Source: Thermobifida alba
Lineage (GTDB): Bacteria; Actinomycetota; Actinomycetes; Streptosporangiales; Streptosporangiaceae
Direction of reading: 5' to 3'
Assembly: GCF_023208015.1 (NCBI RefSeq)
Contig: NZ_CP051627.1
Span: forward strand, 4,012,422 to 4,076,421
DNA: 64,000 nucleotides
The stretch's first letter is position 1. Each line of letters opens with the position of its first letter. Both the position numbers and the translations under genes were made by a program. Shown here one piece after another: positions 32,504-41,995 of the stretch. The notes under the pieces are model-generated. The model saw only the letters and a program-made list of their open reading frames with translations, did no database searches and was not told the origin of the DNA.

Positions 32504-32716
32504 GGGGTTACCGCCTTCCTTCACTGTCGGACCGGATGCACGGCTCGGGGAGTGTGGTCCTCGATCCGCCGAAGGCGCAGGTCAAGGCCGCCAACACCAT
32601 AGACTCGGAAAAGCGCCGAACAGGTGGGCGCCCCGCACAGCCGATCCTCTTCTCCTGGACGAAACAGCCACTTGTCTCCTGTACCCCGCCGCGATGGCGT
32701 TTCCGCTTCCCAGACG

Positions 32717-34198
32717 GTGCCGCTCCGGGCGATCCTGGCCCGGCGCGACCTCGCGCTGGACACGCTCGTCCCCGCCGCCCCGGACGCGCAGGTGCGCTGG
32801 GCGACGGTCAGCGAACTGCTCGACCCCGCCCCGTACCTGAGGGGCGGAGAGCTGCTGCTGACCGCCGGAACCAACCTGCCCGAAGAGAGCGGCACGCTGG
32901 CGGGCTACGTGGCGGCACTGTCCGCCGCCGGGGTCGCCGCTCTCGGCTTCGGGGTGACCCCCGTGCACGACACGGTCCCCGCCGCGCTCGTCGAACACTG
33001 CCGTGCCCGGGGGCTGCCGCTGCTGGTGGTTCCACGTGAAACACCGTTCGTGGCGGTCAGCCAGGCCGTCGGGGAGGAACTGGAACGGCTGCGGATGGCG
33101 GGGCAGCGCCGGTTCACCACCGCCGGACGCTCCCTGACCAGGGCCGCGGTCGGCGCCACCCCGGTGCAGGAGGTGCTGACCACGCTCAGCAGCGCGCTGG
33201 GCTGCTGGACGGAACTGGTCGGCTCGCGCCCGCTGGGGCGGGTCGGCCGGGTCCCCGCGCTCCCCGCCGAGACGCGGGAGCTGATCGGCAAGGTGCGGGC
33301 GGCGGGCGGCCCGCTCAGCGCCAAACTCCAGGCCCCTCCGGACGAGGTGGTGCTGCACGCGGTCGGGGAGCACACCCGTGACCGGTCGGTGCTGCTGCTG
33401 GGGCGGCCCCGGCCGCTGGACGCCACCGACCGCGCGATCCTGGGGATCGCCGTGGCCCTGCTGGGACTGCTGTCCCGGTCGCAGCCGGCCGTGGTCGACG
33501 ACGCGGGACGGCTCGCCGCCCGGCTGCTGCTGTCCGGTGCGGCGCCCGACCCGGCCGTGGAACCGCTGCTGCGGACCCTGCTGTCCGGAGGGGAACGGGC
33601 GGACGTGTACCGGGTGCTGCACGCGCGCTGGACACGCCGCGGGACACGGCCCGCCCCCTCGCCCACGCTCTTCGGCACCCGCCTCGTCGACGACACCGGC
33701 GAACCGGTGCGGGCCGTGCTGGCCGACCAGGGCGACGAGGAGGCCCATCTGGCCCTGCTGGACGAGTTGCGCGCGGCCGGCTGGCTGGCCGCGGTGAGCG
33801 GGCCGGTCCCCGGCGACGCACTGGCCGAGGCGGACCGGCAGGCCGCGATGCTCCTGGTCCGCGCGCACGCCGCGGACCGCCCGCTGCTTCCCGAGACGCA
33901 GCCCGACCCGTTCGACGCGCTGCTGGAAGGGGAGGAGGCCCGGGCGGCGGCGCGGACGCTGCTGGGGCCCCTGGCGGGCCGTGACGGACCCTCCCGCACC
34001 CTGCGTGCGACCCTGCGCGCCTGGCTGGCCCGCCACGGCAGCTGGGACCGGGCCGCCGCAGACCTGGGTGCGCACCGCAACAGCGTCCGCTACCGCATCA
34101 ACCGCATCGAACGCGACCTGGGCGTCGACCTGTCCGACCCGGAACAGCGGATGCGGTTGTGGTTCGCCCTGTCCCGATTCGACGAGGAGGCGCCGTGA
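32717..34198 (+). CDS. PucR-family transcriptional regulator
   Basis: A 493-residue regulator with the usual PucR layout: N-terminal PucR domain (about 1-120, with 'RWATVSELLDPAPYLRGGEL'), a GGDEF-like middle region and a C-terminal HTH_30 ('WLARHGSWDRAAADLGAHRN', then 'SVRYRINRIERDLG'). The start is uncertain; GTG 32717 puts the first PucR strand at the N-terminus as in relatives, but no clear ribosome site is seen. It is divergent from the ureohydrolase gene and probably activates it. Confidence 0.8.
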   Translation: MPLRAILARRDLALDTLVPAAPDAQVRWATVSELLDPAPYLRGGELLLTAGTNLPEESGTLAGYVAALSAAGVAALGFGVTPVHDTVPAALVEHCRARGLPLLVVPRETPFVAVSQAVGEELERLRMAGQRRFTTAGRSLTRAAVGATPVQEVLTTLSSALGCWTELVGSRPLGRVGRVPALPAETRELIGKVRAAGGPLSAKLQAPPDEVVLHAVGEHTRDRSVLLLGRPRPLDATDRAILGIAVALLGLLSRSQPAVVDDAGRLAARLLLSGAAPDPAVEPLLRTLLSGGERADVYRVLHARWTRRGTRPAPSPTLFGTRLVDDTGEPVRAVLADQGDEEAHLALLDELRAAGWLAAVSGPVPGDALAEADRQAAMLLVRAHAADRPLLPETQPDPFDALLEGEEARAAARTLLGPLAGRDGPSRTLRATLRAWLARHGSWDRAAADLGAHRNSVRYRINRIERDLGVDLSDPEQRMRLWFALSRFDEEAP

Positions 34199-34272
34199 CG
34201 CGGACGGGCCGGGACGCGGCGACCTCTGCCGCGCGGGACGGACCGGCGGACGGCCGGATACGGTCCGCGGTC

Positions 34273-34300
34273 TTGACACCGTGTCGGACGGGTATACGTT
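34273..34300 (+). promoter_or_regulatory. Sigma-70-like promoter of kinase gene 1
   Basis: TTGACA at 34273-34278 and TACGTT about 16 bp later, 40 nt before the start codon. Kinase genes 2 and 3 have TTGACA in the same relative place. Confidence 0.5.
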
Positions 34301-34339
34301 CGGTGCCTGTTCGAACGGTTTCGGTGAGGACGGGCGGGT

Positions 34340-36422
34340 ATGGAGCCGTTGCTGCCGGGAGATCCGGAACGGGTCGGTCCGTACCGGCTGGTGGGCCGTC
34401 TGGGTGCGGGTGGGATGGGGCAGGTGTTCCTGGCCCGGTCCCCCGGGGGAAGGCCGGTGGTGGTCAAGGTCATCCTCCCCGAGTACGCCTCTGACACCGA
34501 GTACCGGGCACGGTTCGCGCGTGAGGTGGAGGCGGCGCGCCGGGTGGGTGGTTTCCACACGGCCCAGGTGGTCGCTGCCGACCCTGACGCGGATCCGCCG
34601 TGGATGGCCACCGCCTACGTGCCCGGTCCGTCCCTGAGTCAGGCGGTCCACCAGCGGGGGCCGCTGGACGAGCAGGTTCTGCGCACCCTGGCCGCCGGGC
34701 TCGCCGAGGGGCTGGCCGCGATCCACGGCTGCGGTCTGGTGCACCGCGACTTCAAGCCCGGCAACATCATCCTGGCCGCGGACGGGCCGCGCATCATCGA
34801 CTTCGGTATCGCCAGGCCGACGGATGCCAGCACCATGACCCAGACGGGAGCCGTGATCGGCACCCTGTCCTACATGTCCCCCGAACAGATCGGAGGCAGC
34901 CCGGTTGGGCCGGCCAGCGACATCTTCTCCTTCGGCACCGTGCTGGCGTTCGCCGCCACCGGCCGCTCCCCGTTCGCGGCCGACACGCTGGGCGCGATCG
35001 TCATGCGCATCGTCAGCCCGCCCCCGGAGCTCCCGGAACTCCCCCCGGACCTGCGGGAACTGGTCCGGGCCTGCTGGGTGCAGCATCCCGACGGACGGCC
35101 CACGGCGGCCGACCTGCTGGACCGGCTCAGCGACCGGGCGGGAGGCGAGTGGCCGCCGCCGCACCTCGCCGACCTGGCCGAGACGGCACTGCCCGCCGGT
35201 TCGACCGCCCCGCTCGGACCGGACGAGGCCGAGTCCCCGGAGAGCACGCCGGACCGGGAAACGGGGAGAAACGGGTCGGCGGGGAGAGCCGCGACGCCTC
35301 GACAACCCACCGAGAACACCGCCCAGGAGACGGGGCAGGCCCAGGGGGAGGAGAAGATGCCGTGGTGGGCCTGGGTCGGTCCTGTACTGGTGGCGGCCCT
35401 GATACTCCCCGGGATGTGGCTGGCCTCCCTCCCCGCGACCCCCGATCTGTTCCTGCCCGGAACGGAGCGCTCTCCCGGCGTGCCGCTGGTCACCGATATC
35501 GAGGAGAGGGTACGCGGCGGCGTTCAGCCCGGACGGCTCCAGGCTGGTCGTCGCCGCCGAGGGCATTCGGGTGTGGGACTTCGAGAGCGGGGACTTCCTG
35601 CACTTCCTCGACTGGGACGAGGACGGAGGCTGCGACCAGGTCTCCGTGTTGGCGTTCAGCCCGGATGGGACCGCGCTGGCCGCCGGTTGCACCGACGGCG
35701 GTCTCCGGTTGTGGGACATGGAGAGCGGGGGGCAGGTGGCCACCCTGATCGACCCGGCCCGGTCCGATACGTACGAGTTCGGGATCACCTCGGTGACGTT
35801 CGACGCGGACGGGGCCGTGGTGACCGGTGCCGCGAGGGACGACGTGGTGCAGAGGTGGGATGTCGCGACCGGGAAGCTGCTCTCCGCTGCCGGCCCCTCC
35901 GATCCCGAGCACATGGAGTACACCCCGGGGTATCCGGAGGCGCTGCATCCGGACGGGGCCGTGTTGGCCACCGAGTACGGCCACGAGCACGTGCGGCTGT
36001 GGGACACGGAGAGCGGGGAGAAAGGCGCCACCTTCGAGGGATCGGGTGCCAACCTCTCGGTCGACGCCCTGGCGTTCAGCGCGGACGGCTCCGTGCTGGC
36101 CAGCGGTGGTGATGAGGTGATCGAGGTGTGGGAGGTCGAGTCCGGCAGGAGCCTGGCCGTCGTCCCGTACGGCGGCTCCTCGGCGCGGATCGATGAGTTC
36201 GTTCTCAGTCCGGACGGTTCCCGGCTGCTCAGCAGCGACAGCGAGGGCCGGATCATCCTGTGGGACGTGGCTCCCGGAGGAAGCGGGGACCGGGAGTTCC
36301 TGGACCTCCACGACAGCGAGGTCACCGCGCTGGCATTCCACCCGGACGGTTCCCTGGTGGTCAGCGGTGACGAGAAGGGCGCCATCGAACTGCACGTCCT
36401 GGAGACCGCCGACGACGGGTGA
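34340..36422 (+). pseudogene. Ser/Thr kinase-WD40 gene 1, frameshifted after the membrane segment
   Basis: Codons from 34340 give an intact Hanks-type kinase: GAGGMGQVF, VVVKV (ATP Lys), HRDFKPGN, DFGIARP and MSPEQ. A Pro/Thr-rich linker follows, then a membrane segment ('WWAWVGPVLVAALILPGMWL'). At about 35511-35521 the frame is lost. One base less there gives 'AAFSPDGSRLVVAAEG' and six or seven divergent WD-like repeats to the stop at 36422 ('VWDFESGDF', 'LRLWDMESG', 'VRLWDTESGE', 'IILWDVAPGG'). Without repair the protein ends as kinase plus membrane anchor with a junk tail at 36112. The repeats are far more diverged than in genes 2 and 3. Confidence 0.75.
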
Positions 36423-36672
36423 CCGGGGGAACGGGAGAAGGCGGGACCGCGGGAGGCGGCACCGTGAACGCGCCTCCCCGAGCGGAGAACGCCGGGAGCG
36501 GCTGTTCGCGGAGCCTGCTCCGAAGAGTCCTCCCCCTCCGGTCCCGGTGGCCGTGGTCCGTCCGGTCCCGCCTCGCCGAGCCGCGGTGTCGGCCTCCCAG
36601 ACGCGGTCTCCCGCGGGGCAGGTCACGATGCGGTCAGGGATGTTCGTCGACAGCGGAACGTGAGCAAGGTTC

Positions 36673-36705
36673 TTGACATAATGACATAGAGGGACACGAT
36701 CGTGG
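36673..36705 (+). promoter_or_regulatory. Promoter of kinase gene 2
   Basis: TTGACATAATG at 36673-36683; the same 11-mer precedes kinase gene 3. The -10 is not clear. The remaining 36423-36672 is spacer homologous to about 39180-39420, without gene. Confidence 0.45.
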
Positions 36706-36739
36706 CTGTCTGTGCGGTTTCGCGGTGAGGACGGGGTAG

Positions 36740-38938
36740 ATGGAGCCGTTGCAGCCGGGAGATCCCGGACGGATCGGTCCGTACCGGCTGGTGAGCCGCC
36801 TGGGTGTGGGTGGGATGGGGCAGGTGTTCCTGGCCCGGTCCCCGGGCGGGCGTCCAGTGGTGGTCAAGGTCATCCTCCCCGAGTACGCCTCCGACGCCGA
36901 GTACCGTGCCCGCTTCGCCCGTGAGGTGGAGGCGGCGCGCCGGGTGGGCGGCTTCCACACGGCCCAGGTCGTCGACGCCGACCCCACCGCCGATCCGCCG
37001 TGGATGGCCACCGCCTACGTGCCCGGCCCCTCCCTGCGGCAGGCGGTGACGGAACGCGGCCCGCTGCGGGACCGCAACCTGCGCACCCTGGCGGCCGGAC
37101 TGGTCGAGGGGCTGGCCGCGATCCACGCCCGCGACCTGGTGCACCGCGACTTCAAACCGAGCAACATCATCCTGGCCGCCGACGGGCCGCGCGTCATCGA
37201 CTTCGGTGTCGCCCGGCCGTTGGACGGCAGCAGCATGACCCAGAGCGGCGCGGTGATCGGCACTCTGGCCTACATGTCCCCCGAACAGGTCGGGGGCGGC
37301 CAGGTGGGGCAGGCCAGCGACGTGTTCTCCCTGGGGACCGTGCTGGCGTTCGCGGCTACCGGCCGCTCCCCGTACATGGCCGACTCGATCGGGGCGATCG
37401 TCGCGCGCATCGTCGGCCCGCCACCCGAACTGACCGAACTCCCCGATGACCTGAGAGAGCTGATCCACGCGTGCTGGGAGCAGGACCCCGACCGGCGGCC
37501 CACCACGGCGGAGCTGCTCGCCCGGCTCAGCACCGACCAGACCGGCGACGACTGGCCCCCGTCCCACCTGGCCGACCTGATCGGCTCGGTCCTCTCCCCC
37601 GGAGTGGTGACCTCCCCGAATCCGTCGATCACCGCGGTCGAATCCCCGGAACCGCACGGCCCCCCGGAACTTCCGCGACAGCACAGCCCTCCGCTGCCGG
37701 ACCGACCCCCCGATCCCGGGGGCGGAACGGAGGACGGCCCGAGGCCCCCCGGCCCGGTCACCCCGGAAGAGGACGGGCTGAGGTCCCCCGTCCCGGTCGT
37801 CCCGGAAGAGGACGGCCCGAGGCAACCCGGTCCGGCCGTCCCGAACCCCGGCTGGTCACCTCCGCGAGTGCGACCACCACGGTGGAAGCGGTTCCTCCGG
37901 GAACGGAGAAGCCTCGTCGGCGCGGCTGTGACGGCAACCGTGCTCGGGGTCGCCGCGTCCCTGCTCGTCTGGCTCTGGACGCCGTCCGGCCTGTACAGCG
38001 GAGAAACCCCACCGGAGACGGGGGCGCCCTCCGGCCCCGCCGAGTGGTCCGGGCTGACCGAACCGCGGGTCCTCGACGTCGGGGACCAGGTCCTCGCGGT
38101 GGCGTTCAGTCCGGACGGTTCGGTGCTGGCCGGCGGAAGCGCCGACGGGGCCATCCGCCTGTGGAAGGCCGGGGACGGGGAGGAACCAGCGGTCCTGGAG
38201 GGGCATTCCGACTGGGTGCGGTCGGTGGCGTTCAGTCCGGACGGTTCGGTGCTGGCCAGCGCGAGCGACGACGGCACGGTCCGGTTATGGGATGTCGCGG
38301 CGGGGGAGGAGCGGGCCGTGCTGGAGGGGCATTCCGACTGGGTGCGGTCGGTGGCGTTCAGTCCGGACGGTTCGGTGCTGGCCAGCGCGAGCGACGACCG
38401 CACGGTCCGCCTGTGGGACACCGGGGGCGGAGAAGAGCGGAACACCCTGGACGAGCACACCCACCAGGTCCTCGCGGTGGCGTTCAGTCCCGACGGTTCG
38501 CTGCTGGCCAGCGCGAGCAAGGACGACACCGTCCGCCTGTGGAACACCCCGGACGGAGAGGAACAGGCCGCCCTGGAGGGAAACGCGGGCAACGCCCTCT
38601 CCGTGGCGTTCAGTCCCGACGGTTCGCTGCTGGCCAACGGGAACGAGGACCACACCGTCCGGTTGTGGGATGTCGCGGCGGGGGAGGAGCGGGCCGTGCT
38701 GGAGGGGCATTCCGACTGGGTGCGGTCGGTGGCGTTCAGCCCGGACGGTTCGCTGCTGGCCAGCGCGAGCGACGACGGCACCGTCCGCCTGTGGAACACC
38801 CCGGACGGGGAGGAACGGGAAATCCTCGACGGACACACCGACCGGGTGTGGTCGGTGGCGTTCAGCCCGGAGGGTTCGGTGCTGGCCAGCGCCAGCAAGG
38901 ACGGCACCGTCCGCCTGCGGCCGCTCGACACGGGGTGA
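36740..38938 (+). CDS. Membrane Ser/Thr kinase with seven WD40 repeats (PkwA-like), gene 2
   Basis: A 732-residue protein. Residues 1-275 are a Hanks-type kinase (GVGGMGQVF; Lys in VVVKV; HRDFKPSN; DFGVARP; MSPEQ). A Pro/Glu-rich linker (about 285-390) leads to one membrane helix ('LVGAAVTATVLGVAASLLVWLW', split by no charge). Outside follow seven 42-residue WD40 repeats, near-identical in wording ('SDWVRSVAFSPDGS', 'SDDGTVRLWD'), enough for one full beta-propeller. The layout is that of PkwA of Thermomonospora. The propeller should sense something at the cell surface and signal inward. Targets are unknown. Confidence 0.9.
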   Translation: MEPLQPGDPGRIGPYRLVSRLGVGGMGQVFLARSPGGRPVVVKVILPEYASDAEYRARFAREVEAARRVGGFHTAQVVDADPTADPPWMATAYVPGPSLRQAVTERGPLRDRNLRTLAAGLVEGLAAIHARDLVHRDFKPSNIILAADGPRVIDFGVARPLDGSSMTQSGAVIGTLAYMSPEQVGGGQVGQASDVFSLGTVLAFAATGRSPYMADSIGAIVARIVGPPPELTELPDDLRELIHACWEQDPDRRPTTAELLARLSTDQTGDDWPPSHLADLIGSVLSPGVVTSPNPSITAVESPEPHGPPELPRQHSPPLPDRPPDPGGGTEDGPRPPGPVTPEEDGLRSPVPVVPEEDGPRQPGPAVPNPGWSPPRVRPPRWKRFLRERRSLVGAAVTATVLGVAASLLVWLWTPSGLYSGETPPETGAPSGPAEWSGLTEPRVLDVGDQVLAVAFSPDGSVLAGGSADGAIRLWKAGDGEEPAVLEGHSDWVRSVAFSPDGSVLASASDDGTVRLWDVAAGEERAVLEGHSDWVRSVAFSPDGSVLASASDDRTVRLWDTGGGEERNTLDEHTHQVLAVAFSPDGSLLASASKDDTVRLWNTPDGEEQAALEGNAGNALSVAFSPDGSLLANGNEDHTVRLWDVAAGEERAVLEGHSDWVRSVAFSPDGSLLASASDDGTVRLWNTPDGEEREILDGHTDRVWSVAFSPEGSVLASASKDGTVRLRPLDTG

Positions 38939-39421
38939 TCCCCTCCGTGTCCGACACCGGCCGCGGACCCGCCGTCCGACCCAGGGCAGCGGCGGCGCGT
39001 CCTCACCCGGCACGGCGGTCCGCCGCTTCCGCTCGGAGACCGTGGCACCCCACCGACCGGTGGGCGTTCGGTGCCTGCCCGGGGCGGTCGGGAGCCGTTG
39101 GTGCCGAAGGATCCGTGGTGGCGGGGCGAGGACGGACCGTGCCCGTCCGAACGCACGCACCGCGTCGGCCCCGCCCGGCAAGGACCGGGAAACGGCGGAA
39201 CCGCAGAAGACGGCACCGCGAACACGCGCCCCCGAACGGAGAACGCCGAGAAAACGTCGGAAAAGGCCGGGAAGAGGAGCGCAGCCCCCGCTCCGAAACG
39301 TCCTCCGCCCCGGTCCCGGTGGCCGCGGTGCCGTTCTCTTACCTGTTCAGGACACGGCGTCTGCGGGGGCGGGACGGCGGAAGCAGAGACGTCCGCGAGC
39401 ACCCGGGAACAGCAGGAATTC
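38939..39421. other. Spacer with a relic of the yjbR 3' end
   Basis: No gene. The stretch 38955-39018 resembles 41579-41641, which is the intergenic DNA plus the last codons of the yjbR-type gene after kinase gene 3 (shared GCAGCGGCGGCGCGTCCTC). The later part (39180-39420) resembles the spacer after kinase gene 1. It records tandem duplication of a kinase unit with its downstream flank. Confidence 0.65.
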
Positions 39422-39450
39422 TTGACATAATGCCGCGGAGAAATTCGATG
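39422..39450 (+). promoter_or_regulatory. Promoter of kinase gene 3
   Basis: TTGACATAATG at 39422-39432 in an A/T-rich patch, with TTCGAT about 16 bp after TTGACA as possible -10. It matches the element before kinase gene 2. Confidence 0.5.
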
Positions 39451-39487
39451 AATAGTGGTCAGGGCAATTTCGGTGAGGACGGGATTG

Positions 39488-41560
39488 ATGCATCCGTTGC
39501 AGTTGGGAGACCCGGAGCGGGTGGGCCCCTATCGGCTGGTGGGCCGTCTGGGTGCGGGTGGGATGGGGCAGGTGTTCCTGGCCCGGTCCCCCGGGGGAAG
39601 GCCGGTGGTGGTCAAGGTCATCCTCCCCGAGTACGCCTCTGACACCGAGTACCGGGCACGGTTCGCGCGTGAGGTGGAGGCGGCGCGCCGGGTGGGTGGT
39701 TTCCACACGGCCCAGGTGGTCGCTGCCGACCCTGACGCGGATCCGCCGTGGATGGCCACCGCCTACGTGCCCGGTCCGTCCCTGAGTCAGGCGGTCCACC
39801 AGCGGGGGCCGCTGGACGAGCAGGTTCTGCGCACCCTGGCCGCCGGGCTCGCCGAGGGGCTGGCCGCGATCCACGGCTGCGGTCTGGTGCACCGCGACTT
39901 CAAGCCCGGCAACATCATCCTGGCCGCGGACGGGCCGCGCATCATCGACTTCGGTATCGCCAGGCCGACGGATGCCAGCACCATGACCCAGACGGGAGCC
40001 GTGATCGGCACCCTGTCCTACATGTCCCCCGAACAGATCGGAGGCAGCCCGGTTGGGCCGGCCAGCGACATCTTCTCCTTCGGCACCGTGCTGGCGTTCG
40101 CCGCCACCGGCCGCTCCCCGTTCGCGGCCGAATCGATCGGGGAGGTCGTCATGCGCATCGTCGGTAAGCCTCCCGACCTGGCGGAACTTCCCGACGACCT
40201 GAAACGGCTGGTCCACGCGTGCTGGGAGCAGGACCCCGACCGGCGGCCCACCACGGCGGAGCTGCTCGCCCGGCTCAGCACCGACCAGACCGGCGACGAC
40301 TGGCCCCCGTCCCACCTGGCCGACCTGATCGACTCGGCACTCCCCGGTACGACGCCCCCCTCGAAGCGGCCGCTCACCATGGCGGAGCCGCCGCGGCCGC
40401 ACGCCCCGCCGACACCGCCGCACCAGCCCCCCGGCCCGGGCGGCGAGAGGAACAACCCTCCGCCCAGCCCCGGCCAGGTCGTCCCACCCTCCGACCAGCC
40501 GCTCCCGGGCATGCAGTCCTCGTCGTGGGAGCGACTCTCCCCCGCGCAGAGGGGCCTGCTCGGCGGAGCGGTGACAGCAGCCGTGGTCGGTCTCGCCGCT
40601 TCCCTGGCCATCTGGTTCTGGGCAACGTCGGCGGACTTCTCCCCGACCGGCGGGAACTCCGCCCAGAACATGGCGGAACCGCCCGAGCCCGTGGTCCTCG
40701 ACGAGCACTCCGACTGGGTGCGGTCGGTGGCGTTCAGTCCGGACGGTTCGGTGCTGGCCAGTGCGAGCGACGACGGCACGGTCCGGTTGTGGGACGTGGC
40801 GAGCGGAGCGGAACGGGACGTCTGGGACGGGTACGCAGGCTTTGCCCTCTCCGCGGTCTTCAGTCCCGACGGTTCGCTGTTGGCCAGTGGCTACGAGGAC
40901 GGCACGGTCCGGTTGTGGGACGTGGTGAGCGGAGCAGAGCGGGCTGAGCTGGACGAGCATTCCGACTGGGTGCGGTCGGTGGCGTTCAGTCCGGACGGTT
41001 CGGTGCTGGCCAGTGCGAGCGACGACGGCACGGTCCGCCTGTGGGATGTCGAAGACGAGGAGGAGCGGGCCGTGCTGGAGGGGCATTCCGACTGGGTGTG
41101 GTCGGTGGCGTTCAGTCCGGACGGTTCGCTGCTGGCCAGTGCGAGCGACGACGGCACGGTCCGCCTGTGGGATGTCGAAGACGAGGAGGAGCGGGCCGTG
41201 CTGGAGGGGCATTCCGACTGGGTGCGGTCGGTGGCGTTCAGTCCGGACGGCTCGCTGCTGGCCAGCGGTGAGGACGGCACGGTCCGGTTGTGGGACGTGG
41301 CGAGCGGAGCGGAACGGGACGCCTGGGCCGGGGGCACCGGCTTTGCCCTCTCCGCGGTCTTCAGTCCCGACGGTTCGCTGTTGGCCAGCGGCTACGAGGA
41401 CGGCACGGTCCGGTTGTGGGACGTCGCGGAGAGGGAGCGGGTCGTGCTGGAGGGGCATTCCGACTGGGTGCGGTCGGTGGCGTTCAGTCCGGACGGTTCG
41501 CTGCTGGCCAGCGCCGGCGACGACGGCACCATCCACCTGTGGCCGCTCGGCACGGAGTGA
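39488..41560 (+). CDS. Membrane Ser/Thr kinase with seven WD40 repeats (PkwA-like), gene 3
   Basis: A 690-residue relative of gene 2: kinase (1-275), linker with many Pro, membrane helix ('LGGAVTAAVVGLAASLAIWFW'-like), then seven WD40 repeats. Two repeats have the variant 'GFALSAVFSPDGSLLASGYEDG' and one has lost a residue (SGEDG). The DNA is a mosaic: 39533-40131 is identical to kinase gene 1 (34385-34983), and 40212-40331 is identical to gene 2 (37464-37583), so gene conversion has acted. ATG 39488 aligns with the starts of the other two. Catalytic residues are complete. Confidence 0.9.
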   Translation: MHPLQLGDPERVGPYRLVGRLGAGGMGQVFLARSPGGRPVVVKVILPEYASDTEYRARFAREVEAARRVGGFHTAQVVAADPDADPPWMATAYVPGPSLSQAVHQRGPLDEQVLRTLAAGLAEGLAAIHGCGLVHRDFKPGNIILAADGPRIIDFGIARPTDASTMTQTGAVIGTLSYMSPEQIGGSPVGPASDIFSFGTVLAFAATGRSPFAAESIGEVVMRIVGKPPDLAELPDDLKRLVHACWEQDPDRRPTTAELLARLSTDQTGDDWPPSHLADLIDSALPGTTPPSKRPLTMAEPPRPHAPPTPPHQPPGPGGERNNPPPSPGQVVPPSDQPLPGMQSSSWERLSPAQRGLLGGAVTAAVVGLAASLAIWFWATSADFSPTGGNSAQNMAEPPEPVVLDEHSDWVRSVAFSPDGSVLASASDDGTVRLWDVASGAERDVWDGYAGFALSAVFSPDGSLLASGYEDGTVRLWDVVSGAERAELDEHSDWVRSVAFSPDGSVLASASDDGTVRLWDVEDEEERAVLEGHSDWVWSVAFSPDGSLLASASDDGTVRLWDVEDEEERAVLEGHSDWVRSVAFSPDGSLLASGEDGTVRLWDVASGAERDAWAGGTGFALSAVFSPDGSLLASGYEDGTVRLWDVAERERVVLEGHSDWVRSVAFSPDGSLLASAGDDGTIHLWPLGTE

Positions 41561-41605
41561 TCCCGTCCGGGCCGCGTGACACCGGCCGCGGATCCGCCGA
41601 CCGGC

Positions 41606-41995
41606 TCAGGGCAGCGGCGGCGCGTCCTCCCCCAGCACGGCGAGCAGCCGCTCCCGGTCGGCCCTGCGCAGCCGCGCCACCACCTGCTGGTAGGAGTGGC
41701 GCAGCATCTCCAGCAGTTCGTCGTCGGGCACCGTGCCGTCGAGCAGCACGCTGTTCCAATGGCGTTTGTCGGTGTGGTATCCGGGGAACACCGCATCGAA
41801 CTCGGCGCGCAGTTCCAGGGCGAGGTCGGGGTCGCACTTGAGCGTCACGAACGGCACCCCCTCCCGGTTGCGCTCACTGAGCAGCGCGAACATCCTGCCC
41901 GCCACCTTGTACACCAGCGTCCCCGGGCCGAACGGCTCGGTCTCGACCGCTTCGGGGAACCACAGCGCCGCGTCGATGAACTGCTGCGGGGTCAC
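41606..41995 (-). CDS. MmcQ/YjbR-family DNA-binding-fold protein
   Basis: A 129-residue YjbR/MmcQ-like protein, a cytosolic double-wing fold of unknown role. 'WFPEAVETEPFGPGTLVYKVAGRMFALL' and 'VTLKCDPDLALELRAEF', then 'GYHTDKRHWNSVLLDG', are the family blocks. GTG 41995 has GAGGAGG at 9 nt. Its last codons are repeated as a relic after kinase gene 2. The gene converges on kinase gene 3. Confidence 0.82.
   Translation of the reverse strand: MTPQQFIDAALWFPEAVETEPFGPGTLVYKVAGRMFALLSERNREGVPFVTLKCDPDLALELRAEFDAVFPGYHTDKRHWNSVLLDGTVPDDELLEMLRHSYQQVVARLRRADRERLLAVLGEDAPPLP

Follow-up and report, generated by a model that had tools for sequence, protein, structure and literature searches.

The window analysed here is a stretch of 64,000 nucleotides from the heat-loving bacterium Thermobifida alba and spans bases 4,012,422–4,076,421 of its genome, a single contig 4,903,256 bases long. 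On its forward strand lies an array of three kinase-WD40 genes (genes 1–3, labelled W1–W3 in comparisons), the third of which shares long identical tracts with the other two. PF00069 kinase domains are found in all three, with VKV, HRDFKP, DFG and SPEQ at matching positions, and each gene has a linker, a hydrophobic segment and WD40 repeats. Gene 1 (34340–36112) is a 590-residue open reading frame (ORF) with a Ser/Thr kinase domain (PF00069, 3.2e-39), linker and hydrophobic segment; its WD40 half lies in another frame (35571–36422, an ORF of 283 residues) and is collinear with the intact gene 1 of Thermobifida cellulosilytica. Gene 2 (36740–38938, 732 residues) and gene 3 (39488–41560, 690 residues) run from kinase through hydrophobic segment to WD40, each with seven PF00400 stretches in frame with the kinase. 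The start of gene 3 is taken as the ATG aligned with its paralogues (39488); the ORF list places it at 39455. For the WD40 half of gene 3, the PkwA propeller structure 5yzv is a match at 8.9e-110. From this architecture we infer that all three proteins would be receptor kinases, the kinase lying inside the cell and the propeller outside. The genus Thermobifida has four genomes in the grouping used, and the array is also present in T. cellulosilytica (G001), whose genes are labelled T1–T3; the single copy of G003 is labelled F.

Two identical tracts in the kinase domain of gene 3

Tract 1 of gene 3 (39533–40131, forward strand, kinase residues 16–215) is identical to 34385–34983 of gene 1 at 599 of 599 bases, and tract 2 (40212–40331, forward strand, residues 242–282) is identical to 37464–37583 of gene 2 at 120 of 120. 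The original prediction had described both matches by eye, with diverged sequence between them, and was correct on each point: an 80-bp piece of gene 3's own backbone (40132–40211) separates the tracts. The tract edges are sharp: identity between genes 1 and 3 is 75.6% in the 45 coding bases that precede tract 1 (39488–39532, the unconverted start of gene 3) and 67.5% in the 80 bases that follow. Within 34000–41900 the two tracts are the longest exact direct matches, the next being at most 95 bp long and lying between WD40 blades, and with five other kinase loci in the window's genome exact sharing extends to 27 bases at most.

A recombination test had been proposed for these tracts, and we ran it as column shuffling on seven genes (W1–W3, T1–T3 and F; 334 polymorphic columns, 20,000 shuffles). 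The longest agreeing run spans 219 of the 334 polymorphic columns for W1 and W3 and 55 columns for W2 and W3, and neither was reached in any of the 20,000 shuffles, placing both tracts beyond chance. With third codon positions only, the run was reached in none of the 20,000 shuffles for W1/W3 and in 17 for W2/W3. Kinase cores are constrained (omega 0.15 between W1 and T1), so that purifying selection or codon bias might be thought to keep the copies alike with no recombination. Over tract 1, however, gene 2 is 85.5% identical to genes 1 and 3 overall and 75.9% at third positions, differing at 48 of 199 of them, whereas genes 1 and 3 show no difference at any of the 199. This third-position divergence means that protein-level constraint alone cannot explain 599 identical bases, and we reject selection alone, which we regard as scarcely credible.

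Ancestry of gene 3 and likely direction of transfer

The sequence of gene 3 outside the tracts has relatives elsewhere. Its 80-base middle is 82.5% identical to T2, 85.0% to T3, 77.5% to gene 2 and 67.5% to gene 1, and W1 and T1 are 91.2% alike over the same bases. The tree of the middle joins W1 with T1 (98/97) and W3 with T2 and T3 (88/94, a branch that is not starred), and weakly rejects W2 with W3 (p 0.047). The leaders, compared by eye and with hand-counted forward-strand coordinates, pair in the same way. That of gene 1 (34273–34339, from TTGACA to the start codon) is like the T1 leader, that of gene 3 (39422–39487) resembles the T2 and T3 leaders and that of gene 2 (36673–36739) resembles the leader of F. 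Outside the core (aligned columns 701–901) gene 1 groups with T1 at 100/100. The WD40 half of gene 3 shares 63.7% identical residues with gene 2 and 42.7% with gene 1, and the gene 3 linker is 42.5% like that of gene 2. Because the middle tree and the leaders ally it with T2 and T3, gene 3 is, on these comparisons, a lineage of its own carrying patches, with its 5′ end, 80-base middle, leader and linker its own. The claim that gene 3 is a mosaic of genes 1 and 2 is thus overstated, since gene 3 has its own backbone, with a middle that groups with T2/T3.

Tandem arrays grow by duplication, and gene 3 could in principle be a recent duplicate of gene 1 that diverged fast outside the core. Its middle and leader resemble T2/T3 and not gene 1, and abrupt divergence at two edges is unlike the pattern left by mutation. 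Since gene 1 groups with T1 outside the core and the middle of gene 3 with T2/T3, gene 3 did not arise recently from gene 1; we reject this duplication, which we consider very unlikely.

Recent gene conversion within the array, as first proposed, is the best explanation for both tracts, and we hold it to be highly probable that the kinase domain of gene 3 was altered by non-reciprocal ectopic gene conversion. The exchange is taken as non-reciprocal because both copies now carry the same sequence. With one genome, such an event in place looks the same as import, in which a patched gene 3 arose in another strain and entered by ordinary homologous recombination. The source strain would still need conversion between paralogues, so that import adds one extra step, and we think it decidedly improbable.

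For tract 1 the counts of sites shared with the T. cellulosilytica genes suggest a direction. Over the last 164 aligned columns, a 3′ subset picked after the counts had been seen, the shared sequence has the T1 state at 13 sites and the T2=T3 state at 6, against 4 and 16 for gene 2 (Fisher p 0.0036). Over the whole tract the counts are 24:18 for the shared sequence and 15:30 for gene 2 (p 0.032). Because these counts side with T1, gene 1 is the likely, not proven, donor and gene 3 the recipient, a direction that is clear only at the 3′ end. For tract 2 the approximately unbiased (AU) test gave p 0.24 for both placements, with gene 2 or gene 3 as giver, and so favours neither. Distance quartets placed tract 2 with F, which is gene-2-like, in 1776 and 1772 of 2000 resamplings when T1 served as outgroup, in 1234 and 794 of 2000 with W1 as outgroup, and in 939 and 423 of 2000 with the G002 copy. 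Site counts of T2=T3 against F lean the opposite way to the T1-outgroup quartets, by 8 to 3.

Possible exchange of kinase cores in the genus and the family

Traces that may reflect older exchanges are seen within the genus. At third positions T1 and T2 have the same base at 162 of 199 core sites (81.4%) and at 41 of 66 outside the core (62.1%, p 0.0023), and the orthologues W1 and T1 show the reverse, with 141 of 199 (70.9%) in the core and 57 of 66 (86.4%) outside (p 0.014). Synonymous divergence (dS) between W1 and T1 is 0.47 in the core versus 0.14 in the C-lobe piece, and for the paralogues T1 and T2 it is 0.27 versus 0.69. Outside the core, a clade of T1, T2 and T3 is rejected (p 0.000135), and the best tree for the core itself contains this clade (89/94). 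Older core exchanges, or concerted evolution of the kinase core in the genus, are therefore favoured by these data, not proven.

We then looked at tandem kinase pairs more widely. A search of 200 genomes from this actinobacterial family found 95 with a kinase match at 1e-88, and among 65 genomes of one genus, 19 had a match at 1e-108. Twenty tandem pairs were chosen by eye, eight among the family matches listed and 12 from the one-genus list. In the first eight the protein tails are WD40 by eye; in the other 12, motif counting alone puts two or more WD40-like motifs past residue 300 in every one of the 24 ORFs. The longest exact stretch within a pair ranges from 30 to 596 bases. Six of the 20 pairs (73, 75, 93, 107, 118 and 596 bases) exceed the maximum of 71 bases in 380 between-genome A–B comparisons. 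These comparisons are mutually non-independent, and the members of a tandem pair may have a more recent common ancestor. Within pairs the mean third-position identity is 69.9%, compared with 61.0% between genomes, and downstream of the kinase the 20 pairs are 39–50% alike. In three of the genomes, 12 same-genome non-tandem comparisons gave 23–42 bases, and the six tandem pairs there gave 31–118. Between-genome comparisons of ortholog type reach 116 bases, from which it follows that close relatives can share long runs by descent. A whole-column permutation on the 20 pairs put nine of them at 0 of 5000 shuffles; this test is too lenient because conserved motifs make long runs, and the between-genome and same-genome non-tandem controls were preferred.

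The longest case, locus L089, has a run of 596 bases followed by one mismatch and then 47 more identical bases, and its left edge lies at the same codon as that of tract 1. The pair is 94.0% identical in the kinase and 59.2% in the rest, and the two members of an orthologous-looking pair at L092 are 73.3% alike in the kinase.

That an identity of exactly 100% over 599 bases is also the look of a collapsed repeat raises the possibility of an assembly artefact, with similar copies collapsed into one consensus or reads swapped between them, and L089 itself sits in a draft genome of about 50 contigs. The window's genome is, however, one contig, and both edges of tract 1 are embedded in diverged sequence, the leader and middle having relatives in another species. 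Shorter runs above the between-genome control occur in other single-contig genomes (118 bp at L093/G147, 93 bp at L090/G189 and 75 bp at L096/G219). We consider an artefact unlikely.

Several observations weigh against gene conversion as read here, or against its spread. The case for the window rests on the assembled sequence of one genome of the species, and in the 5′ half of tract 1 the site counts leave the donor undecided. In the genus, T1 and T3 show no significant third-position difference between core and C-lobe (p 0.25), and a W1+T1 clade is not rejected in the core (p-AU 0.11). In the survey, 14 of the 20 tandem pairs do not rise above the between-genome control. The kinases of three related genomes with the same tandem pair (L086–L088) follow the gene tree throughout, with strong support, showing that exchange is not universal and contradicting wholesale concerted evolution everywhere, which we reject; these are also the only loci for which the duplication was shown to be older than the species.

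Ectopic gene conversion is a known process, of which this array is a well-documented new example. Beyond the original prediction, our analysis adds the own backbone of gene 3, a direction that is partly known, and the recurrence of kinase-core exchange in part of the family's tandem kinase-WD40 arrays, though not in all of them. In receptor kinases the kinase part sets the output and the sensor sets the input. Tentatively, and with more doubt than confidence, we suggest that kinase-core conversion may be recurrent in tandem kinase-WD40 genes of the family, where it would re-pair cores with sensors and keep outputs similar as the linkers and, in the surveyed pairs, the sensors diverge; on this view the core of gene 3 would have come from gene 1, a gene with an out-of-frame sensor. 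Sensor divergence holds only for gene 1 versus gene 3 and for the surveyed pairs, not for genes 2 and 3.

The WD40 repeats of gene 2 (38048–38920, forward strand) are 126-base units, several of which group with blades of gene 3 (40676–41542, forward strand). In a tree of 27 blades found by motif, with blades that did not fit the motif left out, those of genes 2 and 3 intermix, as do those of T2 and T3, so that grouping is more by species than by gene. This may reflect conversion, that is, blade exchange, or blade amplification.

The WD40 half of gene 1 is out of frame with the kinase from about 35513, where the alignment has a two-base shortfall; T. cellulosilytica gene 1 is open over the corresponding stretch, and the frame change may be a mutation or a sequencing error. 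An in-frame WD40 part, as in PkwA-type kinase-WD40 proteins, is present in genes 2 and 3 and lacking in gene 1. This half (35526–36422, compared with L083) evolves fast, with omega between W1 and T1 of 0.79 versus 0.15 in the kinase core, and its last 143 codons have omega 1.1–1.2 against T. cellulosilytica, suggesting that the sensor may be relaxed or diversifying. The G002 copy (L084:7101–8453) has part of its kinase domain out of frame and a short open frame of 450 residues; it may be a decaying gene or contain sequence errors.

A possible mechanism, neighbouring features and known systems

Conversion could have started with a break or replication gap in gene 3, the end of which would invade homologous kinase sequence in gene 1, either the copy 5.1 kb upstream or the one on the sister chromosome. 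Copying from gene 1 would then run for about 600 bases before the end returned to gene 3, and a separate event would have linked genes 2 and 3 over 120 bases. Exchange would be confined to regions with enough similarity for the copies to pair; for genes 1 and 3 that is so in the kinase, the site of tract 1, and not in the linkers or WD40 halves. As an outcome, gene 3 would bear the nucleotide loop, active site and activation segment of gene 1 on its own membrane and sensor part. RecC (PF04257) was not found in the window's genome, in a search for which the E. coli control was positive. The genome has two adjoining large ORFs with PDDEXK_1 nuclease domains, a pair that we take to resemble AdnAB, a likely resection enzyme.

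Tract 1 starts two bases before the octamer GCTGGTGG, which lies at 39535–39542 and 34387–34394 and which we take to be the E. coli Chi octamer. The 596-bp tract of L089 likewise starts two bases before it, at nucleotide 48 of both kinases, and these are the only two of the 40 kinases from the 20 pairs to have the octamer in their first 90 bases. In the genus it is present in W1, W3, T2 and T3 and absent from W2, T1, F and the G002 copy. The window is enriched for it (20 occurrences versus a shuffle mean of 5.04), and the raw counts of other octamers with a comparable composition range from 8 to 29. A functional Chi role at the tract starts would be a post hoc reading and is not claimed; the octamer encodes R-L-V-G, and RecC was not found. 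Its place at the tract starts is probably a coincidence.

Each gene is preceded by a TTGACA-like box about 66 bases before the start (34273, 36673 and 39422), and similar leaders are found in T. cellulosilytica and G003; the three genes may thus have separate, similar promoters or leaders. Upstream of the array, at 32624–34198, is an ORF that we assume to encode a PucR-type regulator. In L084 and L085 the single kinase likewise follows an ORF whose end is similar, and no such PucR-like ORF is among those listed at the corresponding place in T. cellulosilytica.

Copying of the kinase part between neighbours makes orthology calls based on that domain misleading, and it blends the histories of genes and species in trees of such arrays. 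The loci surveyed here offer a collection on which to measure domain-limited conversion in signalling genes of bacteria. Among the entries listed from the open-licence literature, titles and abstract openings yielded no report of conversion between bacterial receptor Ser/Thr kinases.

The three proteins are like PkwA of Thermomonospora curvata (PMC6113231, PDB 5yzv) in joining a kinase to a WD40 propeller. That work, in the portion available, treats the WD40 domain of one protein, and mentions neither an array nor exchange between kinase domains. Near-identical WD40 blades amplified within a gene are described in the available portion of PMC9218822, and WD40 proteins with kinase domains and highly repetitive propellers in that of PMC5587647; the term 'gene conversion' is absent from the main texts of both. 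Unlike the cases in those portions, the blades of genes 2 and 3 intermix in the tree and the kinase is patched too. Conversion between rRNA operons, as presented in the accessible parts of PMC8022953 and PMC6002687, resembles our case in that paralogues within a single genome are copied non-reciprocally. Long-lasting concerted evolution in prokaryotes, reported in the accessible part of PMC6053082 for 26 genes mostly of important pathways, is similar in that paralogues exceed orthologues in similarity over the affected part. What distinguishes the array from the rRNA and concerted-evolution cases, as far as those parts describe them, is that the change touches two stretches of one domain, the kinase, in a multidomain gene whose linker retains a different ancestry.

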